Shown here: positions 1,774 through 63,879 of the stretch, one piece after another
Numbering within the stretch: position 1 is the stretch's first letter
Layout of the letters: each line of letters starts with the position of its first letter
From: Lota lota
Taxonomy: Eukaryota; Chordata; Actinopteri; Gadiformes; Lotidae
Assembly: GCA_026745465.1 (NCBI GenBank)
Contig: JACYXH010000266.1
Coordinates: 1 to 64,000, forward strand
Length of the DNA: 64,000 nucleotides
Reading direction: 5' to 3'
The notes under the pieces: model-generated
Databases searched by the model: none
Told to the model about the DNA's origin: nothing
The model's input: the letters and a program-made list of their open reading frames with translations, nothing else
Program-made: the position numbers and the translations under genes

Positions 1774-2253
1774 ATGGCTGAGGAGATTTACGCCAGGCCC
1801 AACATGATGACCAAGGCCAGGTATACACAAGGAGAGAGAGATGAGAGGATAGTGGACATCTTGGTTAGTCCTGGGAGCCTCAGACATCAACACCAGGACC
1901 ATGTGGGGACAGAGGAGTCCTCCAAGTCTCTGAGAACAGGAAGAAGTCAGCGGCCGGACGCTGTGAGCCCTCCTAGGTGTCCGATCAGGGCTGTGGTGGT
2001 GCTTCTGGGCCTGCTGTCTGTTGTCCTGCTGGCTAGACTGCTTGGGTTGGCAGTGCAGTACAAGACCGTCATGGAGAAGACCATCATGGAGAAGACCATC
2101 ATGGAGAAGACCATCATGGAGAAGACTGTAAGCATGGACAGAGACATGGAGCAACTTCTCCAAAGGCTTGTAGGTCTGCACTTGGACTCTTTCAGCGGCT
2201 CCACATTGAACCGATCTTTTATTTGCTTTGGGACTGATGAAGGTTTCTGTTGA
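1774..2253 (+). pseudogene. CTL-1: C-type lectin receptor lacking its lectin domain
   Basis: The frame starts at the standard ATG (MAEEIYAR) and encodes the cytoplasmic tail (ILVSP type), a membrane span with an internal Arg, and a stalk with four TIMEK-like repeats. After ATGGAGCAACTTCTCCAAAG it jumps into the 3' flank sequence (GGCTTGTAGGTCTGCACTTG), adding about 30 unrelated residues before a stop. The CTLD and 3' UTR are deleted. The 5-bp AGGCT is present at both parental sites, pointing to a microhomology deletion. It could still encode a membrane-anchored stalk, but no ligand-binding domain. Confidence 0.85.
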
Positions 2254-2729
2254 AAGACCACTATTTCTTCAGCTTCAATCATTTTAATTGCAGTGTTTGC
2301 CCTGAACCTTTCATACAATTAAATTTTTTAAATCTTTAAAACCAAACATTATATAATATCTCTCACTCTAAACAAATTATACAATAAACCATATTTTGAA
2401 ATCATTTAATTAACATTTTATTTTGGAATAGGCCGATGGCAAACGTATGTAATTCAACCATGTCTTAATATATATTTTGATCCCTTTTAAATAAGTAAAA
2501 CAATCTGAACATTGCTGGTATGACACTAAGTGATGCAGCGCACACACCACTGACACACAGTGCCTCTATAAGCAGAAGTAGGAAGTAACATCTGGTTAAA
2601 ATACTTCCTGATTGTTCTAAGTGAGTGTTAAAACTTTGGCATGCTGGCATACAGAACGCACAGAAAGACCAAGCACTCATACGAGGAGAACGATAAGATC
2701 AACTCTGTGAAAACAGTTTTGACAAGAAT
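2254..2729 (+). promoter_or_regulatory. Inter-gene spacer and presumed promoter of CTL-2
   Basis: The 3' flank module of CTL-1 runs into the internal-type promoter block. Near 2570-2610 this has a TATA-like CTCTATAAGCAG, then AGGAAGT and ACTTCCTG, which are ETS/PU.1-type cores. The motif reading is inference. Confidence 0.4.
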
Positions 2730-3527
2730 ATGGCTGAGGAGATTTACACCAGACCCAACAAGATGACCAAGGTCAGGTATACACAAGGAGAGAGAGAGGA
2801 GAGGATAGTGGACATCTACGCTAGCCTTGAGAGCCTCAGAGATCAACACCAGGACCATGTGGGGACAGAGGAGTCCTCCATGTCTCTGAGAACAGGAAGA
2901 AGTCAGCGGCCGGACGCTGTGAGCCCTCCTAGGTGTCCGATCAGGGCTGTGGTGGTGCTTCTGGGCCTGCTGTCTGTTGTCCTGCTGGCTGGACTGCTTG
3001 GGTTGGCAGTGCAGTACAAGACCAACATGGAGAAGACCGTCATGGGGAAGACTGTAAGCATGGACAGAGACATGGAGCAACTTCTCCAAAGGCTGAAGTA
3101 TGTGACAGAACAGAGAGACGCACTGCTTTGTCAACAGAGCTGTCCAATTGGTTGGAATAAGTTTGGTTGTAAATGTTACAGGCTTTCTGATGTGTATGGA
3201 TCCTGGAATGAGAGCAGGAAGTTCTGTATTTCCCAGGGAGCAGATCTGGTGGTTGTGGACAGTAAAGAGGAGATGGACTTCATTAGCAGGAACGTCTCGT
3301 CCTTCTGGCTCGGAGCGACAGATGAGGCCAGAGAAGGGATGTGGAGATGGGTTGATGGAACCGTCCTGTCAGTGGATAAACCCTCCTGGAGCAGAGGGGA
3401 ACCTGACGGTGGTGAGGACAAGAACTGCCTCATGCTAAAGGTCTCGGAGGAGACCAAATATAAATGGAAAGGTGAGAGATGTGAAGTCCAAAGACAGGGG
3501 ATTTGTGAACGTGATTTAGTAAAATGA
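2730..3527 (+). CDS. CTL-2: C-type lectin receptor, Tyr-type, intact
   Basis: A single-exon, 265-residue type II membrane protein. The tail (1-72) has Tyr6, Tyr17 and Tyr30; Tyr30 sits in IYASL (YxxL). The hydrophobic span is about 73-95 with Gly at the variable position (LLAGLLGL). A short stalk follows (about 96-134, MEKTVMGKT then TVSMDRDMEQL). The CTLD is about 138-260: CPIGWNKFGCKCY, WLGATD, GEPDGGEDKNC, and C-terminal alpha cassette KWKGERCE...ICERDLVK. The six canonical CTLD cysteines are present, plus Cys134 and Cys147. EPD replaces EPN/QPD and the WND motif is missing, so Ca2+-dependent sugar binding is doubtful. It resembles group II/V lectin receptors (CD209-like or NK-lectin-like); the exact orthologue is not recognised. 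It lies 476 bp after CTL-1, with a TTI1 fragment converging from the - strand. Confidence 0.9.
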   Translation: MAEEIYTRPNKMTKVRYTQGEREERIVDIYASLESLRDQHQDHVGTEESSMSLRTGRSQRPDAVSPPRCPIRAVVVLLGLLSVVLLAGLLGLAVQYKTNMEKTVMGKTVSMDRDMEQLLQRLKYVTEQRDALLCQQSCPIGWNKFGCKCYRLSDVYGSWNESRKFCISQGADLVVVDSKEEMDFISRNVSSFWLGATDEAREGMWRWVDGTVLSVDKPSWSRGEPDGGEDKNCLMLKVSEETKYKWKGERCEVQRQGICERDLVK

Positions 3528-5057
3528 TTGATGAAAACATTTCTTTGTACCTATTTTGTACGTCATAATGCAAACAGACGTTGGCTGTTTCTTTCAATAG
3601 TTTTTGGGTTCCGCCATTCGATAAGACCTGTGATTGGCTGCAAGGTGTTCCTTAAAAGGAGATGACATGAATACTTCACTGTTTACTGCAGGAGCTGTAC
3701 ATACTTGCTGCTCTTTTTACTCTTTTATTATTATTATTTTTCAATGTTTCCACAGTTGCTCTTGGTGCTGGAGGCTGAGGTTAGGTGGTAAAGAGTCATG
3801 ACATCATTGGTTGGTTTTCAGTCGCTGTAAACCACACTAGTTCTCTATCTAGGGCCGCCTTTGTCCCCTCAACGGTGTCAAGATCACCCTTCAAAATATG
3901 AAATCGACATTTACAACGAATGTGTTCAATGTAGACGTTTAAAAAATATGTTAAATGTTGAATTGTATTTTGACTTTGGTACCACGTGGTGTGACCACCA
4001 CAAAACACTTATGTAAATGATCTAGTTGTTCCACGGTGTTCAGAAAGCAGAACAGTAGACTTGTGTCCTGGTGTCTGAACAGGCTTGGAGGTCTTTACTT
4101 GGACTCTTTCAGCGGCTCCAAGAGACTGATTTTACAAGCTGTACAAGTCTGAACCCAAGTGGTCAAACAAGACGTTGTCGCTTCAAAAATGCTAGCAATT
4201 TAGTTTTGTGTTACTGAAGGAACACTGTTGAATGTATACGGTATATGCATTCACACACATTCAGAGTAAATTGCAATGAAGTCCGTAAATCTACTGTATA
4301 TTGAGGTGTGTTTGATTTAGTGAATATATATATGTATTTTTAAAGAATCTCTTGAGTTATATATTTTGCTTATTTCATTATTTGGATTTGGTTAAGCCTT
4401 TGTCTCTTTGAACAGACATTGAATTGATATTAAACTACTTTTGGGTCTGGTGAATAAATAATTACTATTGCCAATCAAATGTTTCATCTGTAATATTTTT
4501 AATGGCAGTGTTTACCCTGAACTTTTCTGATCTTTTCAAAACACCACTTAGCATATGTTATTTCTATATGTTTGTATATAAATTATTAACCAAAAGTTTT
4601 GTACAATCTCTTGAATGTCTTAACCCTATTCTCTGTCAAATCAATAATAAAATGTGTATGAAACAATAATTTGAAATCCTCTAACCTTTTTATTAACAAC
4701 AAATATTAATATTAAATGTTTTAAGGTCCTGTGTTTCTTCTCTTCAAGCAGAGAATCAAGTTCTGCTATGTAACTCATTTCTGAGTAAATCAGGATATCA
4801 AGGTGTACAAACATGGTAACACATCATTGATATCAGCTACCTGATCACAAGCCATGTTGGAGCGACTAATGCTTGTTTTATATTCACACTTTCATCTTCA
4901 TTGCAATGAATGACGACGTGCCCTTGAGCAAGTGTCTTCAGAGCAGCAGGTTGCTGGTGTGTCTATGAAACCACAGCAGCAGTTCCACAACACCAGTTTG
5001 ACCAGTCAGTAACGTGATGACCTGACGGAACAGCACAGCACGCGTCCACACTGGGCT
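3528..5057. repeat. Receptor 3' flank module (copy after CTL-2)
   Basis: Conserved non-coding DNA follows every receptor. It has a TGATTGGCTGCAAGG stretch, a perfect CArg-type CCTTAAAAGG at 3650-3659, GAGGCTGAGGTTAGGTGG, and AT-rich sequence up to the TTI1 fragment. No credible gene is seen. Confidence 0.6.
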
Positions 5058-5709: not shown

Positions 5710-5768
5710 CTGAACCACACGGTAACACAGAGGAATAAAGACGTGTGTATTAATACATGTGTATGTAC

Positions 5769-7471: not shown

Positions 7472-7507
7472 GTTCTGGTTCTTGCCACTATTGGGTTCAC
7501 CTCTGTT

Positions 7508-7730
7508 CCTCAACCATCCACCAGCTCAGGGTGGAGTCAGGCCTGCTAGGCCCAGCTCATCTCCTCAACCATCCACCAGCTCCAGGATGGAGTCAGGCCT
7601 GCTAGGCCCAGCTAATCTCCTCAACCATCCACCAGCTCCAGGATGGAGTCAGGCCTGCTAGGCCCAGCTCATCTCCTCAACCATCCACCAGCTCCAGGGT
7701 GGAGTCAGGCCTGCTAAGCCCAGCTCATCT
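7508..7730. repeat. 56-bp minisatellite, 4 units
   Basis: Four units; the first is one base short (CCAGCTCAGGGTGG). It follows LTR copy 2 directly. Confidence 0.88.
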
Positions 7731-8465
7731 CCTCAACCGGTGAGATCAATCCATTTGGATAACTTTTCTCTTCATTCTCTTCATAAATTGTTATTTTTCT
7801 GTTTCTATTGCTGTTGTTTATTTTACCTTTTTTAAAAGCAACTGTTTGAATTTTATTTGTAGCACTTAAAGGAATTGAAAGGGATTCTGTTGGGACTTGG
7901 TCTCTTTAAACAGACATTGAACTGATCATTTATTTGCATTAGACTGATGAAGAAAACATTTATTTTGCCAATCCAGTATTTCGTCAGCTGTAAGTATTTT
8001 AATCGCAACATTTGCCCTGAACTTTTCTCATGACAATCAAACTTTTTATTTAATTTTAATTATTAATATCAAATATTGTACAATATCGCTCACTCTTAAC
8101 AAATTGCATTTATAAATTGTATTAATATTTAGAAAACATACAATCTTTTAACATTTTATGTTTGAATAGGCCCATGGCAGCAACATGTATTTCAAAAATG
8201 TCTTAATGTACAGAATATTTGGTCCATTTGATGGAGGGAGAACAATTAACCTTATTGTTATGACCCTGAGTGATGCAGCGCACATACCACTGACACAGTG
8301 TCTCTAGAAGCAGAAGTGGAAAATAGAATCAGCTTAAAATACTTCCTTTTTTATCAAAGTGGGTGTTAAGACTTTGGCATGCTGTCATACAAAACGCACA
8401 GAAAGACCAAGCTCTCATAGGAGTAGGACGATGAAATAAACTCTGAAAACAGTTTTGACCAGAAT
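7731..8465 (+). promoter_or_regulatory. LTR-type 5' flank and presumed promoter of CTL-3
   Basis: AT-rich spacer ending in the conserved block of about 200 bp before the receptor ATG (GATGCAGCGCACATACCACT at about 8272). The promoter role is inferred from conservation and position. Confidence 0.4.
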
Positions 8466-9314
8466 ATGGCTGAGTCAAGGCCGAACATGATGACCGAGGC
8501 CAGAAATACACAAGGAGAAAGAGAGGAGAGGATAGTGGACATCTTGGTTAGTCCTGAGAGCCTTAGAGATCAACACCAGGACCATGTGGGGACAGAGGAG
8601 TCCTCCATGTCTCTGAGAACAGGAAGAAGTCAGCGGCCGGACGCTGTGAGCCCTCCTATGTGTCCGATCAGGGCTGTGGTGGTGCTTCTGGGCCTGCTGT
8701 CTGTTGTCCTGCTGGCTAGACTGCTTGGGTTGGCAGTGCAGTACAAGACCGTCATGGAGAAGACTGTAAGCATGGACAGAGACATGGAGAAGACCATCAA
8801 GGACAAGACCATCATGGAGAAGACCATCATGGAGAAGACTGTAAGCATGGACAGAGACATGGAACAACTTCGCCAAAGGCTAAAGAATATGACAGAACAG
8901 AGAGACTCACTGATTTGTCAACAGTGCTGTCCAAGTGGTTGGGATAAGTTTGGTTGTGAATGTTACTGGCTTTCTGATGTGTATGGATCCTGGAATGAGA
9001 GCAGGAAGTTCTGTGTTTCCCAGGGAGCAGATCTGGTGGTTGTGGACAGTAAAGAGGAGCTAGACTTCATTAGCAGGTACGGCTCGTCCTTCTGGCTCGG
9101 AGCGACAGATGAGGCCAGAGAAGGGATGTGGAGATGGGTTGATGGAACCGTCCTGTCAGTGGATAACCCCTCCTGGAGCGAAGGGAAACCTGACGGTGGT
9201 GAGGACAAGAACTGCCTCATGCAAAAGGTCTCGGAGGAGACCAAATATAAATGGAAAGGTGAGAGATGTGAAGTCCAAAGAAAGGGGATTTGTGAACGTG
9301 ATTTAGTAAAATGA
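8466..9314 (+). CDS. CTL-3: C-type lectin receptor, Arg-type, intact
   Basis: A single-exon, 282-residue type II protein. The tail begins MAESRPNMM, so it lacks the usual EEIYAR; it also has RNTQ for RYTQ and ILVSP for IYASL. It therefore has no tyrosine at all before the membrane. The span (about 70-92) contains an Arg in VVLLARLLGL. The stalk is long: two VSMDRDMEK/Q blocks flank TIKDK, TIMEK and TIMEK pentads. The CTLD has CCPSGWDKFGCECYWL, WLGATD, GKPDGGEDKNC and the alpha end (KWKGERCE...ICERDLVK). Lys replaces Glu before PD at the sugar-site position. An uncharged tail with an Arg in the span is the layout of activating receptors that pair with an ITAM adaptor; that pairing is inference. 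Confidence 0.9.
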   Translation: MAESRPNMMTEARNTQGEREERIVDILVSPESLRDQHQDHVGTEESSMSLRTGRSQRPDAVSPPMCPIRAVVVLLGLLSVVLLARLLGLAVQYKTVMEKTVSMDRDMEKTIKDKTIMEKTIMEKTVSMDRDMEQLRQRLKNMTEQRDSLICQQCCPSGWDKFGCECYWLSDVYGSWNESRKFCVSQGADLVVVDSKEELDFISRYGSSFWLGATDEAREGMWRWVDGTVLSVDNPSWSEGKPDGGEDKNCLMQKVSEETKYKWKGERCEVQRKGICERDLVK

Positions 9315-11355: not shown

Positions 11356-11392
<37 letters not shown>

Positions 11393-13223: not shown

Positions 13224-13976
13224 ATGATGACCAAGGTCAGGAATACACAAGGAGAGGTCGAGGAGAGAATAGTGGACATCTTGGTTAGTCCTGAGAGCCT
13301 CAGAGATCAACACCAGGACCATGTGGGGACAGAGGAGTCCTCCATGTCTCTGAGAACAGGAAGAAGTCAGCGGCCGGACGCTGTGAGCCCTCCTAGGTGT
13401 CCGATCAGGGCTGTGGTGGTGCTTCTGGGCCTGCTGTCTGTTGTCCTGCTGGCTAGACTGCTTGGGTTGGCAGTGCAGTACAAGACCGACATGGAGAAGA
13501 CTGTAAGCATGGACAGAGACATGGAGCAACTTCTCCAAAGGCTGAAGAATGTGACAGAACAGAGAGACACACTGTTTTGTCAACTGTGCTGTCCAAGTGG
13601 TTGGGATAAGTTTGGTTGTAAATGTTACCGGCATTCCGACGTGTATGGATCCTGGAATAAGAGCAGGGAGTTCTGTGTTTCCCATGGAGCAGATCTGGTG
13701 GTTGTGGACAGTAAAGAGGAGATGGACTTCATTAACAGGAACCTCTCGAACCTCTGGCTCGGAGCGACAGATGAGGCCAGAGAAGGGATGTGGAGATGGG
13801 TTGATGGAACCGTCCTGTCAGTGGATAAACCCTCCTGGAGCAGAGGGAAACCTGACGGTGGTGAGAACAAGAACTGCCTCATGCTAAAGGTCTCGGAGAA
13901 GACCAAATATAAATGGAGAGGTGAGAGATGTGAAGTCCAAAGAAAGGGGATTTGTGAACGTGATTTAGTAAAATGA
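13224..13976 (+). CDS. CTL-4: C-type lectin receptor, Arg-type, shifted start
   Basis: The usual start codon is lost (ATGGCTGAGGAG reads ATAGAGGAGGCA at 13194). The first in-frame ATG is codon 11 (MMTKVRNTQ), giving 250 residues. The remaining tail has RNTQ and ILVSP and no tyrosine. The span carries Arg (LLARLLGL). The stalk is short: TDMEKTVSMDRDMEQLLQRL. The CTLD has CCPSGWDKFGCKCYRHS, WLGATD, GKPDGGENKNC and an alpha end. CTL-7 shares the same start loss, so it predates their separation. Whether the downstream ATG is used is unknown; if not, this is a pseudogene with an otherwise perfect frame. Confidence 0.78.
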   Translation: MMTKVRNTQGEVEERIVDILVSPESLRDQHQDHVGTEESSMSLRTGRSQRPDAVSPPRCPIRAVVVLLGLLSVVLLARLLGLAVQYKTDMEKTVSMDRDMEQLLQRLKNVTEQRDTLFCQLCCPSGWDKFGCKCYRHSDVYGSWNKSREFCVSHGADLVVVDSKEEMDFINRNLSNLWLGATDEAREGMWRWVDGTVLSVDKPSWSRGKPDGGENKNCLMLKVSEKTKYKWRGERCEVQRKGICERDLVK

Positions 13977-17820: not shown

Positions 17821-18582
17821 ATGGCTGAGGAGATTTACGCCAGGCCCAACATGATGACCAAGGCCAGGTATACACAAGGAGAGAGAGAGGAGAGGATAGT
17901 GGACATCTACGCTAGCCTTGAGAGCCTCAGAGATCAACACCAGGACTATGTGGGGACAGAGGAGTCCTCCACGTCTCTGAGAACAGGAAGAAGTCAGCGG
18001 CCGGACGCTGTGAGCCCTCCTAGGTGTCCGATCAGGGCTGTGGTGGTGCTTCTGGGCCTGCTGTCTGTTGTCCTGCTGTCTGGACTGCTTGGGTTGGCAG
18101 TGCAGTACAAGACCGACATGGAGCAAGTCCTCAAAAGGCTGAAGAATGTGACAGAACAGAGAGACGCACTGTTTTGTCAACAGTGCTGTCCAAGTGGTTG
18201 GGATAAGTTTGGTTGTAAATGTTACAGGCATTCTGATGTGGATGGATCCTGGAATAAGAGCAGGAAGTTCTGTGTTTCCCACGGAGCAGATCTGGTGGTT
18301 GTGGACAGTAAAGAGGAGATGGACTTCATTAGCAGGTACCGCTCATCCTTCTGGCTCGGAGCGACAGATGAGGCCAGAGAAGGGATGTGGAGATGGGTTG
18401 ATGGAACCGTCCTGTCAGTGGATAACCCCTCCTGGAGCGAAGGGGAACCTGACGGTGGTGAGGACCAGAACTGCCTTGTGCTAACGGGGGTCTGGGAGCA
18501 GAACCATTATAATTGGACTCGATGGGCAGATGAGAGTTGTGAAGTCAGTATGACGGGGCTTTGTGAACAGAACTTAATGTAG
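17821..18582 (+). CDS. CTL-5: C-type lectin receptor, Tyr-type, intact
   Basis: A single-exon protein of 253 residues with the standard start. The tail has EEIYAR, RYTQ and IYASL. The span carries Gly (LLSGLLGL). It has the shortest stalk of the intact copies: after YKTDMEQVLKRL there are no MEKT pentads. The CTLD has CCPSGWDKFGCKCYRHSD, WLGATD and GEPDGGEDQNC. Its beta C-terminal cassette, GVWEQNHYNWTRWADESCE...GLCEQNLM, is about four residues longer than alpha. It contains WAD in place of WND, so one of the two usual Ca2+ ligands is kept. Confidence 0.9.
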   Translation: MAEEIYARPNMMTKARYTQGEREERIVDIYASLESLRDQHQDYVGTEESSTSLRTGRSQRPDAVSPPRCPIRAVVVLLGLLSVVLLSGLLGLAVQYKTDMEQVLKRLKNVTEQRDALFCQQCCPSGWDKFGCKCYRHSDVDGSWNKSRKFCVSHGADLVVVDSKEEMDFISRYRSSFWLGATDEAREGMWRWVDGTVLSVDNPSWSEGEPDGGEDQNCLVLTGVWEQNHYNWTRWADESCEVSMTGLCEQNLM

Positions 18583-19731: not shown

Positions 19732-20447
19732 ATGGCTGAGGAGATTTACGCCAGGCCCAACATGATGACCAAGGCCAGGTATACACAAGGAGAGAGAGAG
19801 GAGAGGATAGTGGACATCTACGCTAGCCTTGAGAGCCTCAGAGATCAACACCAGGACCATGTGGGGACAGAGGAGTCCTCCATGTCCCTGAGAACAGGAA
19901 GAAGTCAGCGGCCGGACTCTGTGAGCCCTCCTAGGTGTCCGATCAGGGCTGTGGTGGTGCTTCTGGGCCTGCTGTCTGTTGTCCTGCTGGCTGGACTGCT
20001 TGGATTGGCAGTGCAGTACAAGACTGACATGGAGCAAGTCCTCCAAAGGCTGAAGAATGTGACAGAACAGAGAGACACACTGCCTTGTCAACCGTGCTGT
20101 CCATATCGTTGGGATAAGTTTGGTTGTAAATGTTACCGGCTTCCGACGTGAAGGGATCCTGGAATAAGAGCAGGGAGTTCTGTGTTTCCCAAGGAGCAGA
20201 TTTGGTGGTTGTGGACAGTGAAGAGGAGATGGACTTCATTAGCAGGAACGTCTGGAACTTCTGGCTCGGAGCGACAGATGAGGCCAGAGAAGGGATGTGG
20301 AGATGGGTTGATGGAACCGTCCTGTCAGTGTATAACCCCTCCTGGAGCACAGGGGAACCTGACGGTGGTGAGGACCAGAACTGCCTCAAGGTAAAAGTCT
20401 CGGAGGAGACCAAATATAAATGGAGAAGTGAGCGCTGTGAAGACTAA
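19732..20447 (+). pseudogene. CTL-6: C-type lectin receptor, Tyr-type, frameshifted
   Basis: Standard start and tail (IYASL), Gly span, and the short DMEQVLQRL stalk. A one-base loss in the CTLD (GGCTTCCGACG for GGCTTTCCGACG, about 20145) ends the first frame at RLPT. The rest continues in another frame from about 20150. A second lesion turns CAA to TAA after CED (20445-20447). The same TAA occurs in CTL-12, so the copies share a dead ancestor. The C-terminal cassette is alpha-like. Confidence 0.85.
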
Positions 20448-37163: not shown

Positions 37164-37334
<171 letters not shown>

Positions 37335-37368
37335 AAAACATGCAGAAACAAACTATTTCACCAAAGAA

Positions 37369-42620: not shown

Positions 42621-43337
42621 ATGGCTGAGGAGATTTACGCCAAACCCAACATGATGACCAAGGCCAGGTATACACAAGGAAAGAGAGAGGAGAGGATAGT
42701 GGACATCTACGCTAGCCTTGAGAGCCTTAGAGATCAACACCAGGACCATGTGGGGACAGAGGAGTCCTCCATGTCTCTGAGAACAGGAAGAAGTCAGCGG
42801 CCAGACGCTGTGAGCCCTCCTAGGTGTCCGATCAGGGCTGTGGTGGTGCTTCTGGGCCTGCTGTCTGTTGTCCTGCTGGCTGGACTGCTTGGGTTGGCAG
42901 TGCAGTACAAGACCGTCATGGAGCAAGTCCTCCAAAGGCTGAAGAATGTGACAGAACAGAGAGACGCACTGCTTTGTCAACAGTGCTGTCCAAGTGGTTG
43001 GGATAAGTTTGGTTGTAATTGTTACTTGTTTTCCAGTGTGTGGTGATCCTGGAATAAGAGCAGGGAGTTCTGTGTTTCCCAAGGAGCAGATTTGGTGGTT
43101 GTGGACAGTGAAGAGGAGATGGACTTCATTAGCAGGAACGTCGCGAACTTCTGGCTCGGAGCGACAGATGAGGCCAGAGAAGGGATGTGGAGATGGGTTG
43201 ATGGAACCGTCCTGTCAGTGGATAACCCCTCCTGGAGCAGAGGGAAACCAGACGGTGGTGAGGACCAGAACTGTCTCAAGGTAAAAGTCTCGGAGGAGAC
43301 CAAATATAAATGGAGAAGTGAGAGCTGTGAAGACTAA
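42621..43337 (+). pseudogene. CTL-12: C-type lectin receptor, Tyr-type, two stops
   Basis: Standard start, IYASL tail, Gly span and short VMEQVLQRL stalk. A G-to-T change makes TGA at 43044-43046 (SSVW then stop; CTL-16 has GGA). The frame then continues to TAA at 43335-43337, the same CED-TAA lesion as CTL-6. The CTLD otherwise has WLGATD, GKPDGGEDQNC and an alpha-like end. Confidence 0.87.
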
Positions 43338-46886: not shown

Positions 46887-46922
46887 GTTCTGGTTCTTGC
46901 AACTATTGGGTTCACCTCTGTT

Positions 46923-47146
46923 CCTCAACCATCCACCAGCTCCAGGATGGAGTCAGGCCTGCTAGGCCCAGCTCATCTCCTCAACCATCCACCAGCTCCA
47001 GGATGGAGTCAGGCCTGCTAGGCCCAGCTCATCTCCTCAACCATCCACCAGCTCCAGGATGGAGTCAGGCCTGCTAGGCCCAGCTCATCTCCTCAACCAT
47101 CCACCAGCTCCAGGGTGGAGTCAGGCCTGCTAGGCCCAGCTCATCT
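46923..47146. repeat. 56-bp minisatellite, 4 units
   Basis: Four full units after LTR copy 3. Confidence 0.88.
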
Positions 47147-47874
47147 CCTCAACCGGTGAGATCAATCCATTTGGATCACTTTTCTCTTAATTCTCTTCAT
47201 AAATTGTTATTCTTCTGTTTCTATTGATGTTGTATATTTCACCTTTTTTAAAAGCAACTGTTTGAATTATATTTGTAGCACTTAAAGGAATTTAAAGGTA
47301 TTCTGTTGGGACTTGGTCTCTTTAAACAGACATTGAACTGATCTTTAATTTGCATAAGACTGATGAAGAAAACATTTATATTGCCAATCCAGTATTTCAT
47401 CAGGTTTAATTATTTTAAATGCAATGTTTGCACTGAAATTTTCTCATAATGACGGTCCATTTTAAATTTTTTAATCATTAATATCAAAAATTCTATAATA
47501 TCTTTCACTCTTAATAAATTGTAAATGAAACAATATTTAGAAAACATATAACCTTTTACTTAACTTTATCATTTTATTTTGGCATAAGCCTATGGCAATA
47601 AGTATTTTAAGAATGTCTTAATGTATATTTGGTCCATTTGAAGGAGGGAGAATAATCAATCTTACTGTTATGACCCTAAGTGATGCAGCGCACATACCAC
47701 TGACACACTGTCTCTAGAAGCAGAAGTGGAAAATAGCATCCGCTTAAAATACTTCATTTTTTATTAAAGTGGGTGTTAAGACTTTGACATGATATCATAC
47801 TTAACTCACAGAAAGACCAAGCACACCAAGTAGGACGATAAGATAAACTCTGTGAAAACAGTTTTGACCAGAAT
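47147..47874 (+). promoter_or_regulatory. LTR-type 5' flank and presumed promoter of CTL-13
   Basis: AT-rich spacer ending in the conserved pre-ATG block (GCGCACATACCACTGACAC, intact target site for the hAT seen at CTL-11). Confidence 0.4.
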
Positions 47875-48696
47875 ATGGCTGAGGCCAGGCCGAACATGAT
47901 GACCGAGGACAGAAATACACAAGGAGAGAGAGAGGAGAGGATAGTGGACATCTTGGTTAGTCCTGAGAGCCTCAGAGATCAACACCAGGACCATGTTGGG
48001 ACAGAGGAGTCCTCCATGTCTCTGAGAACAGGAAGAAGTCAGCTGCCGGACGCTGTGAGCCCTCCTAGGTGTCCAATCAGGGCTGTGGTGGTGCTTCTGG
48101 GCCTGCTGTCTGTTGTCCTGCTGGCTAGACTGCTTGGGTTGGCAGTGCAGTACAAGACCGTCATGGAGAAGACCATCAAGGAGAAGACCGCCATGGAGAA
48201 GACCATCATGGAGAAGACTGTAAGCATGGACAGAGACATGGAGCAACTTCGCCAAAGGCTAAAGAATGTGACAGAACAGAGAGACTCACTGCTTTGTCAA
48301 CAGTGCTCTCATAGTGGTTGGGATAAGTTTGGTTTTAAATGTTACCGGCTTTCTGATGTGCAGGGATCCTGGAATAAGAGCAGGGAGTTCTGTGTTTCCC
48401 ACGGAGCAGATCTGGTGGTTGTGGACAGTAAAGAGGAGATGGACTTCATTAGCAAGTACCGCTCGTACTTCTGGCTCGGAGCGACAGATGAGGCCAGAGA
48501 AGGGATGTGGAGATGGGTTGATGGAACCGTCCTGTCAGTGGATAACCCCTCCTGGAGCAGAGGGAAACCTGACGGTGGTGAGGACAAGAACTGTCTCTTG
48601 GTAACGAAGGTCTGGGAGCAGACCTATTATAAATGGGCAGATGAGAGATGTGAAGTCAGTATGAGAGGGCTTTGTGAACAGAATTTAATGAAGTGA
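47875..48696 (+). CDS. CTL-13: C-type lectin receptor, Arg-type, intact, altered cysteines
   Basis: A single-exon protein of 273 residues. The tail starts MAEARPNMM (no EEIYAR), with RNTQ and ILVSP, so it has no tyrosine, like CTL-3. The span has Arg (LLARLLGL). The stalk has TIKEK, TAMEK, TIMEK and TVSMDRDMEQL. The CTLD start reads CSHSGWDKFGFKCYRLS: compared with CCPSGW...GCKCY, two cysteines are replaced (by Ser and Phe) together, keeping an even count. It has WLGATD and GKPDGGEDKNC, and a short beta-like end (KVWEQTYYKWADERCE, then GLCEQNLMK). Confidence 0.9.
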   Translation: MAEARPNMMTEDRNTQGEREERIVDILVSPESLRDQHQDHVGTEESSMSLRTGRSQLPDAVSPPRCPIRAVVVLLGLLSVVLLARLLGLAVQYKTVMEKTIKEKTAMEKTIMEKTVSMDRDMEQLRQRLKNVTEQRDSLLCQQCSHSGWDKFGFKCYRLSDVQGSWNKSREFCVSHGADLVVVDSKEEMDFISKYRSYFWLGATDEAREGMWRWVDGTVLSVDNPSWSRGKPDGGEDKNCLLVTKVWEQTYYKWADERCEVSMRGLCEQNLMK

Positions 48697-49767: not shown

Positions 49768-49955
49768 TGGGTTGGGTTGATGGAACCGTCCTGTCAGTGG
49801 ATAACCCCTTCTGGAGCAGAGGGGAACCTGACGGTGGTGAGGACAAGAACTGCCTCGTTCTAACGTGGGTCTGGGAGCAGAACCAATATAAATGGGCAAG
49901 TGAAAACTGTCAGCGCCTCAACAAGGTAATTTGTGAACGTGATTTAATAAAATGA
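49768..49955 (+). pseudogene. CTL-14: C-terminal lectin-domain fragment
   Basis: Only the last 62 codons or so remain: GWVDGTVLSVDNPFWSRGEP, DGGEDKNC, then WVWEQNQYKWASENCQRLNK and VICERDLIK. It is a gamma-type cassette. Everything 5' of the second half of the CTLD was deleted. Confidence 0.85.
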
Positions 49956-51227
49956 TTTATAAAAACATTTCTTTGTGCCTATTTTGTACATCATAATGCC
50001 AATAAACATCAACTTTTTTGTTTCATACTTGTTGGGTTCCGCCATCCCATAAGAGCTGTGATTGGCTGGTTTTCAGTCTCTGTAAACCACACTAGTTCTC
50101 TATCTAGGGCTGCCTTTGTCCCCTCAACGGTGTCAAGATCACCCTTCAAAATATGAAATGGACATTTATAACAGATGTGGTAAAATATGTTTTGAACTAG
50201 ATTGTTTTTTAATATTGAATTGTATTTCGACCTTGGTAACATGTAGTTTGATCGCTAAAAAACACTTGGATATCAATGATGTTGCAATGCTACTTTGTTA
50301 AGATAGAGCCTGATTTTAAAAGCTGTAAAAGTCTGACCCGAAGTGGTCAAACAAGACATTGTCGATTCAAAAATCCTAGAAGCTTAATTTTGTGTTATTG
50401 AAGGAACACTTTTGAAGGTACATATGCATATACATGCATTCACACACATAGAGAGTAAATCTAGTGTCTATTCAGCTGTGTTTGCTTCGGTGAATTTTTT
50501 CTTTTATTTTAAAATAGCTTTTGGGCTTATTTTATTTGGATTTAGTTTGGACTTGGTCTCTTTGACATGGAACTGATATTAAATTACTTTTGGGACTGAA
50601 TAAACAATTAATATTGCCAATTAATTGTTTCATCTGTAATATTTTTAATGGCAGTGTTTGCCCTGAACTTTTCTGATCTTTGCAAAATACCACTTACCAT
50701 ATTTTATTTCTATATGTTGGTATAAATCATTAAGAATGTTTTTTCAATGTTTGTTCCCACTCTTAACCCTATTCATTGTCAAATAAATAATAAATTGAAT
50801 ATGAAACAATAAATTGAAATCGTCTAACCTTTTTATTAACAACAAAAATTAATATTAAATGTTTTAAGGTCCTGTGTTTCTTCTCTTCAAGCAGAGAATC
50901 AAGTTCTGCTATGTAACTCATTTGTGAGTAAATCAGGATATCACGGTGTATAACCATGGTAACACATCATTGATATCAGCTACCTGATCACAAGCCATGT
51001 TGCAGCGACTAATGCTTGTTTTATATTCACACTTTCATCTTCATTGCAATGAATGACGACGTGCCCTTGAGCAAGTGTCTTCAGAGCAGCAGGCTGCTGG
51101 TGTGTCTATGAAACCACAGCAGCAGTTCCACAATACCAGTTTGACCAGTCAGTAACGTGATGACCTGACGGAACAGCACAGCATGCGTCCACACTGGGCT
51201 TCATCTGATTGGTCGTCCATCCGCCCA
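49956..51227. repeat. 3' flank module (after CTL-14), older version
   Basis: A more divergent module with an internal deletion (it goes from ATTGGCTG directly to GTTTTCAGTCTCTGTAAACC). No gene is seen. Confidence 0.5.
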
Positions 51228-51626: not shown

Positions 51627-51658
<32 letters not shown>

Positions 51659-53793: not shown

Positions 53794-53829
53794 GTTCTGG
53801 TTCTTGCCACTATTGGGTTCACCTCTGTT

Positions 53830-53940
53830 CCTCGACCATCCACCATCTCAGGGTGGAGTCAGGCCTGCTAGGCCCAGCTCATCTCCTCAACCATCCACCA
53901 GCTCCAGGATGGAGTCAGGCCTGCTAGGCCCAGCTCATCT
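53830..53940. repeat. 56-bp minisatellite, 2 units
   Basis: The shortest array; the first unit is one base short, as in the array at 7508. Confidence 0.85.
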
Positions 53941-54629
53941 CCTCAGCCGGTGAGATCAATCCATTTGGATCACATTTCTCTTAATTCTCTTCCAGAAATT
54001 GTGTTGGTATTTTTCTGTTTCTGTTGCTATTTGTAGCACTTAAAGGAATTGAAAGGGATTCTGTTGGGACTTGGTCACTTAAAACAGACATTGAACTGAT
54101 CTTTAATTTGCATTGGACTGACGAAGAAAACATTTATATAACCAATCTAGTATTTCGTCAGTTTAAAGTATAATCGCAATGTTTGCCCTGAACCTTTCGC
54201 ATGACAATCAAACTTTTTAAAATTGTATCATTAATATCAAATATTGTACAATATCTCTCACTCTTAACAAATACTATTTATAAATTGTATTAATATTGAG
54301 AAAACATATAATCTTAACATTTTATTTTGAAATAGGCCCATGGCAGCAATATGTATTTCAAGAATTGTCTTAATTTATATTTGGTCCATTTGATGGAGGG
54401 AGAACAATGAACCTTCTTGTTATGACCCTAAGTGATGCAGCGCACATACCACTGACACACTGTCTCTAGAAGCAGAAGTGGAAAGTAACATCGACTTAAA
54501 AGACTTCCTGATTGTTCTAAGTGAGTGTTAAAACGTTGGCATGCTGTCATACAGAACGCACAGAAAGACCAACCACTCGTAGGAGTAGGACGATAAGATA
54601 AACTCTGTGAAAACAGTTTTGACCAGAAT
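53941..54629 (+). promoter_or_regulatory. Mosaic 5' flank before CTL-15
   Basis: Begins as LTR-type flank and ends as internal-type promoter (AAAGACTTCCTGATTGTTC), suggesting a crossover near 54480. Confidence 0.4.
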
Positions 54630-54736
54630 ATGGCTGAGGAGATTTACGCCAGGCCCAACATGATGACCAAGGCCAGGTATACACAAGGAGAGAGAGAGGA
54701 GAGGATAGTGGACATCTACGCTAGCCTTGAGAGCCA
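54630..54736 (+). pseudogene. CTL-15: N-terminal tail fragment
   Basis: The standard ATG and 35 codons of a Tyr-type tail (MAEEIYARP, RYTQ, IYASLES) are followed by a jump into the AT-rich part of a 3' flank module (ATATTTTATTTCTATATG). Confidence 0.88.
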
Positions 54737-55093
54737 TATTTTATTTCTATATGTTTGTATAAATTATTAACCAAAAGTTGTGTACAATCTCTTGAATGTC
54801 TTAACCCTATTCTATGTCAAATCAATAATAAATCGAATATGAAACAATAATTTGAAATCCTTTTTTTATTAACAAATATTAATATTAAATGTTTTAAGAT
54901 CCTGTGTTTCTTCTCTTCAAGCAGAGAATCAAGTTCTGCTATGTAACTCATTTCTGAGTAAATCAGGATATCATGGTGTATAAACATGGTAACACATCAT
55001 TGATATCAGCTATCTGATCACAAGCCATGTTGGAGCGACTAATGCTTGTTTTTACGATAAGATAAACTCTGTGAAAACAGTTTTGACCAGAAT
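54737..55093. repeat. Displaced flank piece between CTL-15 and CTL-16
   Basis: About 315 bp of the region that normally precedes a TTI1 fragment. It is cut at GCTTGTTTTT and joined to the last 40 bp of a receptor promoter (ACGATAAGATAAACTCTG). Confidence 0.75.
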
Positions 55094-55963
55094 ATGGCTG
55101 AGGAGATTTACGCCAGGCCCAACATGATGACCAAGGCCAGGTATACACAAGGATAGGTCAAGGAGAGGATTGTGGACATCTTGGTTAGTCCTGAGAGCCT
55201 CAGAGATCAACACCAGGACCATGTGGGGACAGAGGAGTCCTCCATGTCTCTGAGAACAGGAAGAAGTCAGCGGCCGGACGCTGTGAGCCCTCCTAGGTGT
55301 CCGATCAGGGCTGTGGTGGTGCTTCTGGGCCTGCTGTCTGTTGTCCTGCTGGCTGGACTGCTTTGGTTGGCAGTGCAATACAAGACCGTCATGGAGAAGA
55401 GCATCAAGGAGAAGACCGCCGTGGAGAAGACCATCATGGAGAAGACCGCCATAGAGAAGACCATCATGGAGAAGACTGTAAGCATGGACAGAGACATGGA
55501 GCAACTTCGCCAAAGGCTGAAGAATGTGACAGAACAGAGAGACGCACTGCTTTGTCAACAGTGCTGTCCAAGTGGTTGGGATAAGTTTGGTTGTAAATGT
55601 TACAGGTTTTCCAATGTGTGGGGATCCTGGAATAAGAGCAGGAGGTTCTGTGTTTCCCACGGAGCAGATCTGGTGGTTGTGGACAGTAAAGAGGAGATGG
55701 ACTTCATTAGCTGGTACGGCTCGTCCTTCTGGCTCGGAGCGACAGATGAGGCCAGAGAAGGGATGTGGAGATGGGTTGATGGAACCGTCCTGTCAGTGGA
55801 TAACCCCTCCTGGAGCAGAGGGGAACCTGACGGTGGTAAGGACAAGAACTGCCTCGTTCTAACGTGGGTCTGGGAGCAGAACCAGTATAAATGGAGTCGA
55901 TGGGCGGATGAGAGTTGTGAAGTCAGTATGAGGGGGCTTTGTGAACAGAATTTAATGAAGTGA
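55094..55963 (+). pseudogene. CTL-16: C-type lectin receptor with one early stop
   Basis: The frame is whole except for TAG at codon 21 (55154-55156). The tail is ILVSP but the span has Gly (AGLLWL), a mixed class. The stalk is long (SIKEK, TAVEK, TIMEK, TAIEK, TIMEK, TVSMDRD). The CTLD has CCPSGWDKFGCKCYRFS, WLGATD, GEPDGGKDKNC and a beta end (RWADESCE). An in-frame ATG at codon 51 (55244, MSLRTG) could give a short-tailed receptor, so loss of function is not certain. Confidence 0.85.
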
Positions 55964-56510: not shown

Positions 56511-56559
56511 AGATAAGGGATATGAAGCCCAAAACGTGGTCCTTTGTGAAAAGAATTGA
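56511..56559 (+). pseudogene. Old receptor C-terminal scrap
   Basis: The frame reads DKGYEAQNVVLCEKN then stop. This matches the receptor C-terminus pattern (CE.QN..LCE.NL). It is followed by a divergent 3' flank module, so it is the tail of an older lost copy. Confidence 0.55.
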
Positions 56560-57818
56560 ATACAATTATTGATAAAATTATTTAGTTGTGCTTATTTTGA
56601 ACATGTTCCTCTTCACTTAATGCCAACATACATCAACCTTTTTGTTTCATACTTGTTGGGTTCGACCATCCCATAAGAGCTGTGATTGGTTGGTTTTCAG
56701 TCTCTGCAAACCACACTAGTTCTCGAGGGCTGCCTTTGTCCCCTCAACGGTGTCAAGATCACCCTTCAAAAAAGGAAATGTACATTTCTTAACACATGTG
56801 GTAAAATACGTTTTGAACAAGATTGTTTTTTTAAATATTGAATTGTATTTCGACCTTGCTACCATGTAGTGTGATCACTACAAAACACTTGGATATCAAT
56901 TATCTTGTAACGCTACTGTGTTAAGATGGAGCCTGATTTTAAAAGCTGTAAAAGTCTGACCCCAAGTGGTCAAACAAGACATTGTTGTTTCAAAAAAATT
57001 AGAAGCTTTGTTTTGTGTTATTGAAGGAACACTTTTGAAGGTACAAACGCATATACATGCATTCCCACGCAATCAGAGTAAAGCTGTTTGCTTCAGTGAT
57101 TATTTTTTTTAAAGCTCTTGAATAATATTGTTTGCTTATTTTATTTGGATTTAGTTTGGACTTGGTCTCTTTGAACAGACAATGAACTGATATTTTATTA
57201 CTTTTGTGACTGATAAATAAAAATTTATTGTTGCTAATCAAATGTTTCATCTGTAATATTTTTAATGGCAGTGTTTGCCCTGAACGTTTCTGATCTTTTC
57301 AAAATACCACTTAGCATATGTTATTTCTATATGTTTGTACAAAACCTTTGGTTAATAATTTATACAATCTCTTGAATGTCTTAACCCTATTCTATGTCAA
57401 ATCAATAATAAAATGTGTATGAAACAATAATTTGAAATCCTCTAACCTTTTTATTAACAACAAATATTAATATTAAATGTTTTAAGGTCCTGTGTTTCTT
57501 CTCTTCAAGCAGAGAATCAAGTTCTGCTATGTAACTCATTTCTGAGTAAATAAGGATATCACGGTGTGTAAACATGGTAACACATCATTGATATCAGCTA
57601 CCTGATCACAAGCCATGTTGGAGCGACTAATGCTTGTTTTATATTCAAACTTTCATCTTCATTGCAATGAATGACGACGTGCCCTTGAGCAAGTGTCTTC
57701 AGAGCAGCAGGTTGCTGGTGTGTCTATGAAACCACAGCAGCAGTTCCACAACACCAGTTTGACCAGTCAGTAACGTGATGACCTGACGGAACAGCACAGC
57801 ACGCATCCACACTGGGCT
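56560..57818. repeat. Divergent 3' flank module before TTI1 copy 8
   Basis: Older version, like 49956-51227. No gene is seen. Confidence 0.5.
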
Positions 57819-60204: not shown

Positions 60205-60240
60205 GTTCTGGTTCTTGCCACTATTGGGTTCACCTCTGTT

Positions 60241-60464
60241 CCTCAACCATCCACCAGCTCCAGGATGGAGTCAGGCCTGCTAGGGCCAGCTCATCTCCTC
60301 AACCATCCACCAGCTCCAGGATGGAGTCAGGCCTGCTAGGCCCAGCTCATCTCCTCAACCATCCACCAGCTCCAGGGTGGAGTCAGGCCTGCTAGGCCCA
60401 GCTCATCTCCTCAACCATCCACCAGCTCCAGGGTGGAGTCAGGCCTGCTAGGGCCAGCTCATCT
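60241..60464. repeat. 56-bp minisatellite, 4 units
   Basis: Four units showing the GGGCCAGC variants also found in the array at 653. Confidence 0.88.
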
Positions 60465-61195
60465 CTTCAGCCGATGAGATTAATCCATTTGGATCACTTT
60501 TCTCTTAATTCTCTTACCAAAAAAATATTTTAATTTTTCCATTGCTGTTGTTTATTTTACCTTTTTTTTTTAAAGCAGCTATGTTTGAATTATATGTGTA
60601 GAACTTAAAGGAATTGAAAGGTATTCTGTTGGGACTTGGTCTCTTTAAACAGACATTGAACTGATCTTTAATTTGCATTAGACTGATGAAGAAAACATTT
60701 ATATTGCCAATCCAGTGTTTCATCAGCTTTAATTATTTTAAATGCAATGTTTGCACTGAACTTTTCTCATTATGACAATCCTTTTTTAATTTTTTTATCA
60801 TTTATATAAAAAATTATATAATCTTTCACTCTTAATAAATTGTAAATGAAACACTATTTAGAAAACACATAACCTTTTTCTTAACTTTACCTTTTTATTT
60901 TGGCATAAGCCTATGGCAATAAGTATTACAATAATGTCTTAATGTATATTTGGTCCATTTGATGGAGGGAAAATAATCAACCTTACTGTTATGACCCTAA
61001 GTGATGCAGCGCACATACCACTGACACACTGTCTCTAGAAGCAGAAGTGGAAAATAGAATCAGCTTAAAATACTTCCTTTTTGATTAAAGTGGCTCTTAA
61101 GACTTTGACATGATGTCATACATAACTCTCAGAAAGACCAAGCACACCAAGTAGGACGATAAGATAAACTCTGTGAAAACAGTTTTGACCGGAAT
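60465..61195 (+). promoter_or_regulatory. LTR-type 5' flank and presumed promoter of CTL-17
   Basis: Nearly identical to 1045-1773, the flank of CTL-1. Confidence 0.45.
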
Positions 61196-61905
61196 ATGGC
61201 TGAGGAGATTTACGCCAGACCCAACATGATGACCAAGGCCAGGAATACACAAGTAGAGAGAGAGGAGAGGATAGTGGACATCTTGGTTAGTCCTGAGAGC
61301 CTCAGAGATCAACACCAGGACTATGTGGGGACAGAGGAGTCCTGCTTGGGTTGGCAGTGCAGTACAAGACCGTCATGGAGAAGATCATCAAGGAGAAGAC
61401 TGACATGGAGAAGACCGCCATGGAGAAGACTGTAAGCATGGACAGAGATATGGAGCAACTTCCTGAAAAGCTGAAGAATGTGACAGAGCAGAGAGACACA
61501 CTGCTTTGTCAACTGTGCTGTCCAAGTGGTTGGGATAAGTTTGGTTGTAAATGTTACCGGCTTTTCGACGTGAAGGGATCCTGGAATAAGAGCAGGAGGT
61601 TCTGTGTTTCCCAAGGAGCAGATCTGGTGGTTGTGGACAGTAAAGAGGAGATGGACTTCATTAGCAGTTACGGCTCGTACTTCTGGCTCGGAGCGACAGA
61701 TGAGGCCAGAGAAGGGATGTGGAGATGGGTTGATGGAACCGTCCTGTCAGTGGATAACCCCTCCTGGAGCAGAGGGGAACCTGACGGTGGTGAGGACCAG
61801 AACTGCCTCAAGGTAAAAGTCTAGGAGAAGACCAAATATAAATGGAGAGGTGAGAAATGAGAAGACCAAAACAAGGGGATTTGTGAACGTGATTTCATAA
61901 ATTGA
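61196..61905 (+). pseudogene. CTL-17: C-type lectin receptor without a membrane span
   Basis: The standard ATG and an ILVSP tail read to GTEES. A deletion then joins GAGGAGTCCT to GCTTGGGTTGGCAG, removing the end of the tail and nearly all of the span and shifting the frame. The stalk and CTLD continue in another frame (61351 on): CCPSGWDKFGCKCYRLF, WLGATD, GEPDGGEDQNC. TAG (TCGGAG to TAGGAG, about 61823) and TGA near the end give further stops. The C-terminus is alpha-like. Confidence 0.87.
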
Positions 61906-63021
61906 TTGATGAAAACATTTCTTTGTACCTATTTTGTACATCATAATGCCAACAGACGTTGGCTGTTTTGTTCAATAGTTTTTGGGTTCCGCCATTCGAT
62001 AAGAGCTGTGATTGGCTGCAAGGTGTTCCTTCAAAGGTGATGACATGAATACTTCACAGGTCACTGCAGGAGCTGTACATAGATGCTGCTCTTGTTGCCT
62101 CATTTTTGTTCAGTGTTTCCACAGTTGCTCTTGGTGTTGGAGGCTGAGGTTAGGTGGTAAAGAGTCATGACAGTCATTGGTTGGTTTTCAGTCGCTGTAA
62201 ACCACACTAGTTCTCTATCTAGGGCCGCCTTTTTCCCCGCAACGGTGTCAAGATCACCCTTCAAAATATGAAATGGACATTCATAACAAATGTGTTCAAT
62301 GTAGACGTTTTGAACTAGATAGATTTTTATATTGAATTGTATTTAGTATTCGGTGCCATGTGGTGTGATCACTATAAAAACACTTGTTTATAAAGGATCT
62401 AGTTGTTCTAAGGTGTTCAGATAGCAGAACAGTAGTCTTGTGTCCTGGTGTCTGAACAGGCTTGTAGGTCTGCACTTGGACTCTTTCAGTGGCTCCACAT
62501 TGAACCGATCTTTTATTTGCTTTGGGACTGATGAAGGTTTCTGTTGAAAGTCCACTATTTCTTCAGCTTCAATCCTTTACATTGCAGTGTTTGCCCTGAA
62601 CTTTTCATGTATATATTTTTTAATCTTTAAAACCAAACATTATATAATATCTCTAACTCTAAACAAATTGTATATTAAACCATACTTTGAAATCATCTAA
62701 CCTTTACCATCTTATTTTGGCATTGGCCTACAGCAAATATGTATTTCAACTATGTCTTAATGCGTATTATGATCCCTTTTAAGTAAGTAGAACAATCTGA
62801 ACATTGCTGATATGATCTTAAGTGATGCAGTGCACACACCACTGACACACAGTGCCTCTATAAGCAGAAGTAGGAAGTAACATCTGGTTAAAAGACTTCC
62901 TATTTGTTCAAAGTGAGTGCTATGACTTTTTTATGCTGTCATACAGAACGCACAGAAAGACCAACCACTCGTAGGAGTAGGACGATAAGATAAACTCTGT
63001 GAAATCAGTTTTGACCAGAAT
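61906..63021. repeat. Spacer between CTL-17 and CTL-18
   Basis: A 3' flank module (the CArG-like site reads CCTTCAAAGG here), then the internal-type promoter block (CTCTATAAGCAGAAGTAGG at about 62854). No gene is seen. Confidence 0.5.
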
Positions 63022-63879
63022 ATGGCTGAGGAGATTTACGCCAGGCCCAACATGATGACCAAGGTCAGGTATACACAAGGAGAGAGAGAGGAGAGGATAG
63101 TGGACATCTACGCTAGCCTTGAGAGCCTCAGAGATCAACACCAGGACCATGTGAGGACAGAGGAGTCCTCCATGTCTCTGAGAACAGGAAGAAGTCAGCG
63201 GCCGGACGCTGTGAGCCCTCCTAGGTGTCCGATCAGGGCTGTGGTGGTGCTTCTGGGCCTGCTGTCTGTTGTCCTGCTGGCTGGACTGCTTGGGTTGGCA
63301 GTGCAATACAAGACCGTCATGGAGAAGACTGTAAGCATGGACAGAGACATGGAGAAGATCATCAAGGAGAATACCATCATGGAGAAGACCATCATGGAGA
63401 AGACTGTAAGCATGGAACGAGACATGGAGCAACTTCGCCAAAGGCTGAAGAATGTGACAGAAGAGAGAGACTCACTGCTTTGTCAACAGTGCTGTCCATT
63501 TGGTTGGGATGAGTTTGGTTGTAAATGTTACCGGCTTTCCGACGTGAAGGGATCCTGGAATAAGAGCAGGGAGTTCTGTGTTTCCCACGGAGCAGATCTG
63601 GTGGTTGTGGACAGTAAAGAGGAGATGGACTTCATTAGCAGGTACGTCTCGTCCTTCTGGCTCGGAGCGACAGGTGAGGCCAGAGAAGGGATGTGGAGAT
63701 GGGTTGATGGAACCGTCCTGTCAGTGGATAACCCCTCCTGGAGGGGAGGGAAACCTGACGGTGGTGAGGACAAGAACTGTCTCAAGGGAAAAGTCTCGGA
63801 GAAGACCAAATATAAATGGAGAGGTGAGAGATGTGAACAGCAAAACAAGGGGATTTGTGAACGTGATTTAGTAAAATGA
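63022..63879 (+). CDS. CTL-18: C-type lectin receptor, Tyr-type, intact
   Basis: A single-exon protein of 285 residues. The tail has EEIYAR, RYTQ and IYASL; the span has Gly (LLAGLLGL). The stalk has TVSMDRDMEK, IIKEN, TIMEK, TIMEK and TVSMERDMEQL. The CTLD has CCPFGWDEFGCKCYRLS, WLGATG (Gly for the usual Asp) and GKPDGGEDKNC. The alpha end carries an unusual CEQQNKGICERDLVK, intermediate between alpha and gamma. Confidence 0.9.
   Translation: MAEEIYARPNMMTKVRYTQGEREERIVDIYASLESLRDQHQDHVRTEESSMSLRTGRSQRPDAVSPPRCPIRAVVVLLGLLSVVLLAGLLGLAVQYKTVMEKTVSMDRDMEKIIKENTIMEKTIMEKTVSMERDMEQLRQRLKNVTEERDSLLCQQCCPFGWDEFGCKCYRLSDVKGSWNKSREFCVSHGADLVVVDSKEEMDFISRYVSSFWLGATGEAREGMWRWVDGTVLSVDNPSWRGGKPDGGEDKNCLKGKVSEKTKYKWRGERCEQQNKGICERDLVK

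Follow-up and report, generated by a model that had tools for sequence, protein, structure and literature searches.

Tail tyrosine motif or membrane arginine: two coupled states in a C-type lectin receptor array of Lota lota

The window analyzed here comprises 64,000 nucleotides of Lota lota, namely positions 1 to 64,000 of the forward strand of contig JACYXH010000266.1 (assembly GCA_026745465.1). It features on its plus strand a tandem array of type II C-type lectin receptor genes, designated CTL with a running number (Table 1). The open copies belong to two types: one carries an Arg in the membrane span together with the tail motif ILVSP, the other a Gly in the span together with the tail motif IYASL.

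The encoded proteins consist of a cytoplasmic tail of 62 to 72 residues, a span of 22 residues, a stalk of 15-bp repeats, and one C-type lectin domain (CTLD). The frame is uninterrupted from start to stop, so that the coding part requires no intron. In all nine open copies, the span lies N-terminal to the stalk and CTLD and has a mean hydropathy of 2.67 to 2.85. The Pfam profile Lectin_C is matched by each of the four copies tested (CTL-2, CTL-3, CTL-11, and CTL-13) with E-values of 5.9e-18 to 8.6e-19, 1.8e-18 for CTL-2, and with scores of 66 to 68.7 bits against a cut-off of 22.6; NCBIfam profiles run on two copies gave matches only far under the cut-off. CTL-5, the only copy compared with PDB sequences, has NKG2D as its top match, and the best 60 of 150 matches also include CLEC4C, CLEC4E, CLEC4D, CLEC6A, and CLEC4A; as a sequence ranking, this list contains members of what we take to be groups II and V of the CTLDs. 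A structure of CTL-5 predicted from the nine-copy alignment has a mean predicted local distance difference test score of 37.1 and was not used. Relatives were sought in viral contigs (99 pattern matches) and in prokaryote genome contigs (53 pattern matches), none of which was confirmed.

The stalk repeats, with MEKTI-like units, are found at 2062–2126, 24209–24273, 40858–41022, 55382–55476, and other places, and the number of EKT units differs among copies, from none in CTL-5 to eight in CTL-11. Protein or stalk length as a correlate of type was dropped, as the values of the two types overlap. The counts below leave aside CTL-8, which has no tail, CTL-17, which has no span, the tail-only fragment at 54630, and further fragments at 35749–35832, 49773–50068, and 56542–56692.

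Table 1. Copies and fragments of the lectin receptor array, with positions in the window
Copy	Position	Strand	Condition	Type	Motif positions and remarks
CTL-1	1774–2253	+	truncated before lectin domain	Arg/ILVSP	also Tyr17; hybrid within the tail–span block
CTL-2	2730–3527	+	open, single exon	Gly/IYASL	IYASL 2814; Gly codon 2991–2993
CTL-3	8466–9314	+	open	Arg/ILVSP	ILVSP 8541; Arg codon 8718–8720; distal Tyr deleted
CTL-4	13224–13976	+	open from 13224	Arg/ILVSP	ILVSP 13278; Arg codon 13455–13457; usual ATG at 13194 is ATA
CTL-5	17821–18582	+	open	Gly/IYASL	IYASL 17905; Gly codon 18082–18084; 5′ flank class of CTL-4, CTL-7, and CTL-10
CTL-6	19732–20500	+	dead, frame lost in lectin domain	Gly/IYASL	
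CTL-7	23951–24742	+	open from 23951	Arg/ILVSP	ILVSP 24005; Arg codon 24182–24184; usual ATG at 23921 is ATA
CTL-9	28796–29650	+	dead, in-frame stops	mixed Gly/ILVSP	
CTL-10	33479–34318	+	open	Arg/ILVSP	ILVSP 33563; Arg codon 33740–33742; distal Tyr6 retained
CTL-11	40570–41484	+	open	Gly/IYASL	IYASL 40654; Gly codon 40831–40833
CTL-12	42621–43390	+	dead, stop in lectin domain	Gly/IYASL	
CTL-13	47875–48696	+	open	Arg/ILVSP	ILVSP 47950; Arg codon 48127–48129; distal Tyr deleted; lacks two ectodomain Cys
Tail-only fragment	54630–54760	+		IYASL	
CTL-16	55094–55963	+	dead, stop in tail	mixed Gly/ILVSP	
CTL-17	61196–61890	+	dead	ILVSP	most of membrane span deleted
CTL-18	63022–63879	+	open	Gly/IYASL	IYASL 63106; Gly codon 63283–63285

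Coupling of the tail motif and the span residue

The two sites are codons 30–33, encoding YASL or LVSP, and codon 88, encoding Gly or Arg. They are 55 to 58 codons apart, within the 40 to 60 given by the first-pass annotation, and each residue state listed there is present in every copy it named, be it open, truncated, or dead. The Arg occupies position 16 of the 22 span residues in all five open Arg copies; the span motif, annotated as LLARLLGL, is right as to the Arg or Gly state, but CTL-5 reads LLSGLLGL. Both sites exist in 14 copies: six are Arg/LVSP, six Gly/YASL, and two, both dead, Gly/LVSP. The combination Arg/YASL is found in none of these 14 copies, with 2.6 expected under independence of the sites. 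Fisher tests, uncorrected for phylogeny, give p = 0.0079 for the nine open copies and p = 0.0097 for all 14. The coupling is real as a description of the array, but the counts alone do not establish an evolutionary association. Of the copies annotated as intact, CTL-4 and CTL-7 are open frames rather than clearly intact genes, the first in-frame ATG belonging to a Met-Met ten codons in and the same change surrounding the lost start in both. They are counted as open here; excluding both leaves three Arg and four Gly copies.

The extent of the coupled block was determined on a nucleotide alignment spanning −500 to +1400, with linkage disequilibrium and split counts taken on gap-free columns in which the minor allele occurs in at least two of the nine open copies. 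Linkage was also computed on 13 copies, omitting CTL-1. Most of the stalk is lost as gaps, and the usable 3′ flank is approximately the first 120 bases (CTL-18 ends near the window end). Seven of 158 two-allele sites track type perfectly in the nine open copies: +48, which changes Tyr17 of RYTQG to Asn; +88, +89, +91, +95, and +97, which distinguish YASL from LVSP; and +261, which distinguishes Gly88 from Arg. The best sites outside these seven reach an r2 of 0.64 (−172 and +676). Across 13 copies, +48 and +261 agree throughout, whereas YASL/LVSP and Gly/Arg are linked with an r2 of only 0.54 because the dead copies CTL-9 and CTL-16 carry Gly with ILVSP. Five of the six diagnostic codons alter the protein, and two of the six lie at tyrosines among the three tail tyrosines common to the four Gly copies (hypergeometric probability 0.006, post hoc); a second figure of 0.0019, which counts the YASL cluster once, is not relied on as the cluster spans four codons.

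The tails differ accordingly in tyrosine content: the Gly copies CTL-2, CTL-5, CTL-11, and CTL-18 have three, four, three, and three tail tyrosines; the Arg copies CTL-3, CTL-4, CTL-7, CTL-10, and CTL-13 have none, none, none, one, and none. Tyrosine-free tails hence occur in four of five open Arg copies versus none of four Gly copies (p = 0.048, uncorrected). The tyrosines of the Arg copies are gone through different lesions—Tyr6 (EEIYARP) is absent from CTL-3 and CTL-13 via a common in-frame deletion and from CTL-4 and CTL-7 via the lost start, and is present in CTL-10. The split is broader than two sites: Tyr17, YASL/LVSP, and Gly88/Arg vary together in open copies.

Mosaic genes and the question of descent

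Mean r2 with type amounts to 0.08, 0.17, and 0.14 in the bins of the 5′ flank, to 0.09, 0.24, and 0.04 in those of the lectin domain, and to 0.01 in the usable 3′ flank. Among the 126 splits of the nine open copies into four and five, Gly versus Arg alone has perfect sites in the tail and span, and it has none in the 5′ flank, the stalk and lectin domain, or the 3′ flank. The main splits of the 5′ flank set apart CTL-2, 18, 3, and 13 (31 sites) and CTL-5, 4, 7, and 10 (26 sites); those of the stalk and lectin domain set apart CTL-2, 18, 3, and 4 (six sites) and CTL-5, 11, 10, and 13 (four sites) and cut across type. The lectin domain thus has classes common to both types, one uniting the Gly copies CTL-2 and CTL-18 with the Arg copies CTL-3 and CTL-4, the other the Gly copies CTL-5 and CTL-11 with the Arg copies CTL-10 and CTL-13; CTL-7 stands apart. 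The lectin-domain tree requires at least four changes of YASL/LVSP and at least five of Gly/Arg. Because the main splits of the segments disagree, each gene is a mosaic of a flank class, a signaling class, and an ectodomain class. By eye, the 5′ flank class can be rejected as the cause of type, as CTL-5 and the fragment at 54630 bear YASL on flanks that otherwise come with ILVSP.

The proportions of nonsynonymous (pN) and synonymous (pS) differences in the lectin domain are 0.0995 and 0.0852 between types and 0.1090 and 0.0887 within types. The ectodomains, annotated as near-identical, are therefore better called closely similar, though they are as alike between types as within. The proposal of two signaling types on common ectodomain classes is borne out: the lectin domain yielded no site tracking type, such sites lying in the tail and span. 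Closely similar ectodomains joined to differing signaling regions, one of the features by which paired receptors are recognized, are present here.

The array is probably a two-state signaling cassette placed on common ectodomains, with an adaptor-coupled (Arg) and a self-signaling (Tyr) state. Gene conversion or unequal exchange would reshuffle the 5′ flank, the signaling cassette, and the lectin domain independently. A hybrid with Gly and ILVSP would have no obvious signaling route and one with Arg and YASL would have both, and selection may act against such hybrids.

Several observations weigh against this. The claim that the states never mix in intact genes holds for nine of nine open copies, yet few independent events underlie these nine, the normal start codon is missing from CTL-4 and CTL-7 among the five Arg copies, and CTL-13 is short of two ectodomain cysteines. 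The association test that had been proposed is significant as an uncorrected Fisher test, but with correction by independent pairs it is without power: on five trees from four stretches (two lengths of the 5′ flank, and the lectin domain with and without the 3′ flank; 14 or 13 copies each), at most two independent pairs lie on well supported branches and at most four on all branches, too few for a sign test to reach 0.05. A tree of the tail and span that includes the seven sites puts the YASL copies in one clade (100/97), and pS over the whole tail (0–207) is 0.0996 between types versus 0.0727 within. Other splits are perfect in the tail and span as well, namely CTL-4 with CTL-7 (seven sites) and CTL-3 with CTL-13 (three sites); therefore, shared descent is visible within the Arg group. 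The five Arg copies represent fewer lineages, since CTL-4 and CTL-7 are identical over 0–290 and CTL-3 and CTL-13 have the same tail deletion. Finally, one of the diagnostic sites, +95, is a synonymous one and agrees with hitchhiking within a small tract.

If the seven sites are removed, the tree of 0–290 does not group the types and requires four changes per trait, a number as low being reached in 110 and 115 of 300 label shuffles. In addition, the synonymous distance in +99 to +291 is 0.0245 between types and 0.0282 within. Low neutral variation in this stretch weakens the failure to group the types. With the types ungrouped in this reduced tree, plain shared ancestry is not the full explanation, and the block tree and the synonymous distance together suggest a coupling beyond shared descent. 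Two old lineages are likewise not favored by this tree and distance, even though whole-tail pS is higher between types.

A purely neutral origin, in which two short tail–span variants were spread by gene conversion in tracts longer than approximately 213 bases and the coupling has no functional cause, we regard as unlikely. The scarcity of independent events, the single YASL clade, the perfectly linked synonymous site, and the higher whole-tail pS are what it would predict, and CTL-5 resembles one coupled transfer onto another flank class. On the other hand, neither the block nor the neighboring segments yielded any further difference between the types, and the protein is altered at five of the six diagnostic codons, including two at tail tyrosines common to the Gly copies. 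Moreover, breaks within the block did occur: CTL-1 combines Tyr17, LVSP, and Arg, and CTL-9 and CTL-16 combine Tyr17, LVSP, and Gly, all in dead or truncated copies. These hybrids are dead or truncated in three of three cases versus two of 11 other copies (p = 0.027, uncorrected, with the grouping chosen post hoc). On the block tree without the seven sites, CTL-4 and CTL-7 cluster with CTL-9 and CTL-16 (86/92, a branch not marked as well supported), and the Arg pair is open and the Gly pair dead—a comparison of two versus two.

A stronger version of the two-state reading appears improbable as a whole: that selection holds a four-part cassette of Tyr6, Tyr17, the Tyr30 motif, and the span charge in two states despite free conversion of flanks and ectodomains, that hybrids are culled as pseudogenes, and that the Tyr state is a DNGR-1-like SYK/SHIP1 motif and not a classical inhibitory motif.

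Possible signaling of the two types

The consensus residue of an immunoreceptor tyrosine-based inhibitory motif (ITIM) stands at position −2 of its tyrosine. In VDIYASL, Asp stands at −2 and Ile at −1 of Tyr30, so that YASL is not a strict ITIM, as the first-pass annotation had seen. The residues described before the YxxL of an ITIM are I/V/L/S, none of which is at −2 in VDIYASL. For the hemITAM, a tri-acidic run and usually a Gly are described before YxxL, with the Tyr mostly at residue 7; neither tail motif corresponds, as Tyr30 is preceded by VDI, and Tyr6 has AEE-I but a Pro at +3.

In the two-state reading, the span Arg of one type would pair with an adaptor of the FcR-gamma or DAP12 kind, which has an acidic residue in its span and an immunoreceptor tyrosine-based activation motif (ITAM). 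The other type, with an uncharged span, would signal via its own tail through Tyr30, perhaps aided by Tyr6 and Tyr17. Mincle and DCAR are described as pairing with FcR-gamma through their span Arg; against a simple transfer of this rule, Dectin-2 is described as pairing with FcR-gamma without the use of its span Arg. The description of the two types as opposing receptors goes too far, for DIYASL fits neither the ITIM nor the standard hemITAM rule; we lean toward the Tyr type as a candidate dampening member.

Both types could instead be activating by two routes of the same sign, Arg via an ITAM adaptor and YASL via a hemITAM-like Tyr30 that recruits SYK and possibly SHIP1 too, which we think doubtful. 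In DIYASL, the Tyr follows an acidic residue and an Ile and has a Leu at +3, which is similar to the hemITAM of DNGR-1 (EEEI-Y), and the Asp stands where an ITIM would have I/V/L/S. But a single acidic residue precedes Ile-Tyr, in place of a tri-acidic run near residue 7, and the Ile at −1 curbs activation in DNGR-1, where it precedes the hemITAM Tyr and limits activation of a receptor that signals through SYK and recruits SHIP1. DNGR-1 (CLEC9A), whose logic is the closest one described, resembles the Tyr type in its Ile directly before the Tyr, the acidic residue before the Ile, and the YxxL; it differs in that its Tyr is residue 7 with EEEI, whereas the array has Tyr30 with VDI, plus Tyr6 in AEEIYARP without a Leu at +3.

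The two-state design resembles the DCIR/DCAR, Ly49, and KIR pairs and would stand beside the fish cKLR clusters. The DCIR/DCAR/Mincle group of the mammalian Dectin-2 family likewise consists of type II receptors with a single CTLD, having one member with a Tyr motif and members with an Arg in the span that use FcR-gamma; DCIR bears an ITIM and has been postulated as a paired receptor. The array differs by a motif outside the ITIM consensus that DCIR follows, by a coding frame in one exon, and by several closely similar copies per type. In KIR and Ly49, activating forms combine a span charge with a lost tail Tyr motif; cattle activating KIR acquired one short tail by recombination, and mouse Ly49 carries either an ITIM, encoded by exon 2, or an Arg, encoded by exon 3. 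These are other receptor families, and the Ly49 features are in separate exons. In addition, five of six cattle activating KIR are dead, in contrast to the Arg copies of the array, five of six of which are open, with the usual ATG missing in two. The cichlid cKLR clusters of tilapia and Paralabidochromis, compared here by the descriptions of later papers, are likewise tandem multigene type II lectin receptors of bony fish. Among the papers listed for fish or paired receptors, no title or abstract opening mentions fish lectin receptors divided into Arg and Tyr types, which is weak evidence of absence, the original cichlid papers being outside this scope. Mixed receptors, KIR2DL4 and NKG2F, are described in mammals; a strict rule of no mixing would therefore be notable.

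Inferences of paired receptors usually start from a few diverged genes; the closely similar copies of this array, with shuffled flanks and ectodomains, make up a natural recombination panel. The rule of charge in the span or Tyr in the tail, never both or neither, becomes testable by a count of hybrids across further haplotypes and species. Should it hold, the same logic as in KIR and Ly49 would have arisen within one exon, probably in a fish lectin family, with the residues that define both states named.

Ectodomain variation and neighboring elements

The ratio pN/pS in the lectin domain is 1.17 between types and 1.23 within, which would fit a diversifying pressure on ligand binding common to both types. 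In CTL-11 coordinates, +680 to +760 is nearly invariant and adjoins the most variable stretch, +760 to +915. Classical C-type lectins bind sugar through a rule-bound tripeptide of the sugar site. This tripeptide reads EPD, KPD, KPN, or EPG in the array; classical sugar binding is thus doubtful. In CTL-13, two lectin-domain Cys are lost together (CCPSGWDKFGCKC to CSHSGWDKFGFKC), perhaps removing one disulfide.

A flank module at 4720–5019 recurs at 10498, 15166, 21319, 30853, 44208, 50863, and 57481. The eight copies have 98 to 99% identity and are much more uniform than the adjoining lectin genes; a ninth match at 54893 has only 62 to 63%. Near this module, an exon-like frame (VFRHLIQVDPDAFWLTLSQLHAPF...) lies on the minus strand. 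Broken transposase-like frames, which look like a hAT/ZBED element, lie within 36900–40000 on the minus strand near a GT run of 168 bases (37166–37333). Upstream of several copies, a minisatellite with a 56-bp unit is present in two to seven units (652–1049, 7507–7738, 46922–47154, 53829–53945, and 60240–60469).

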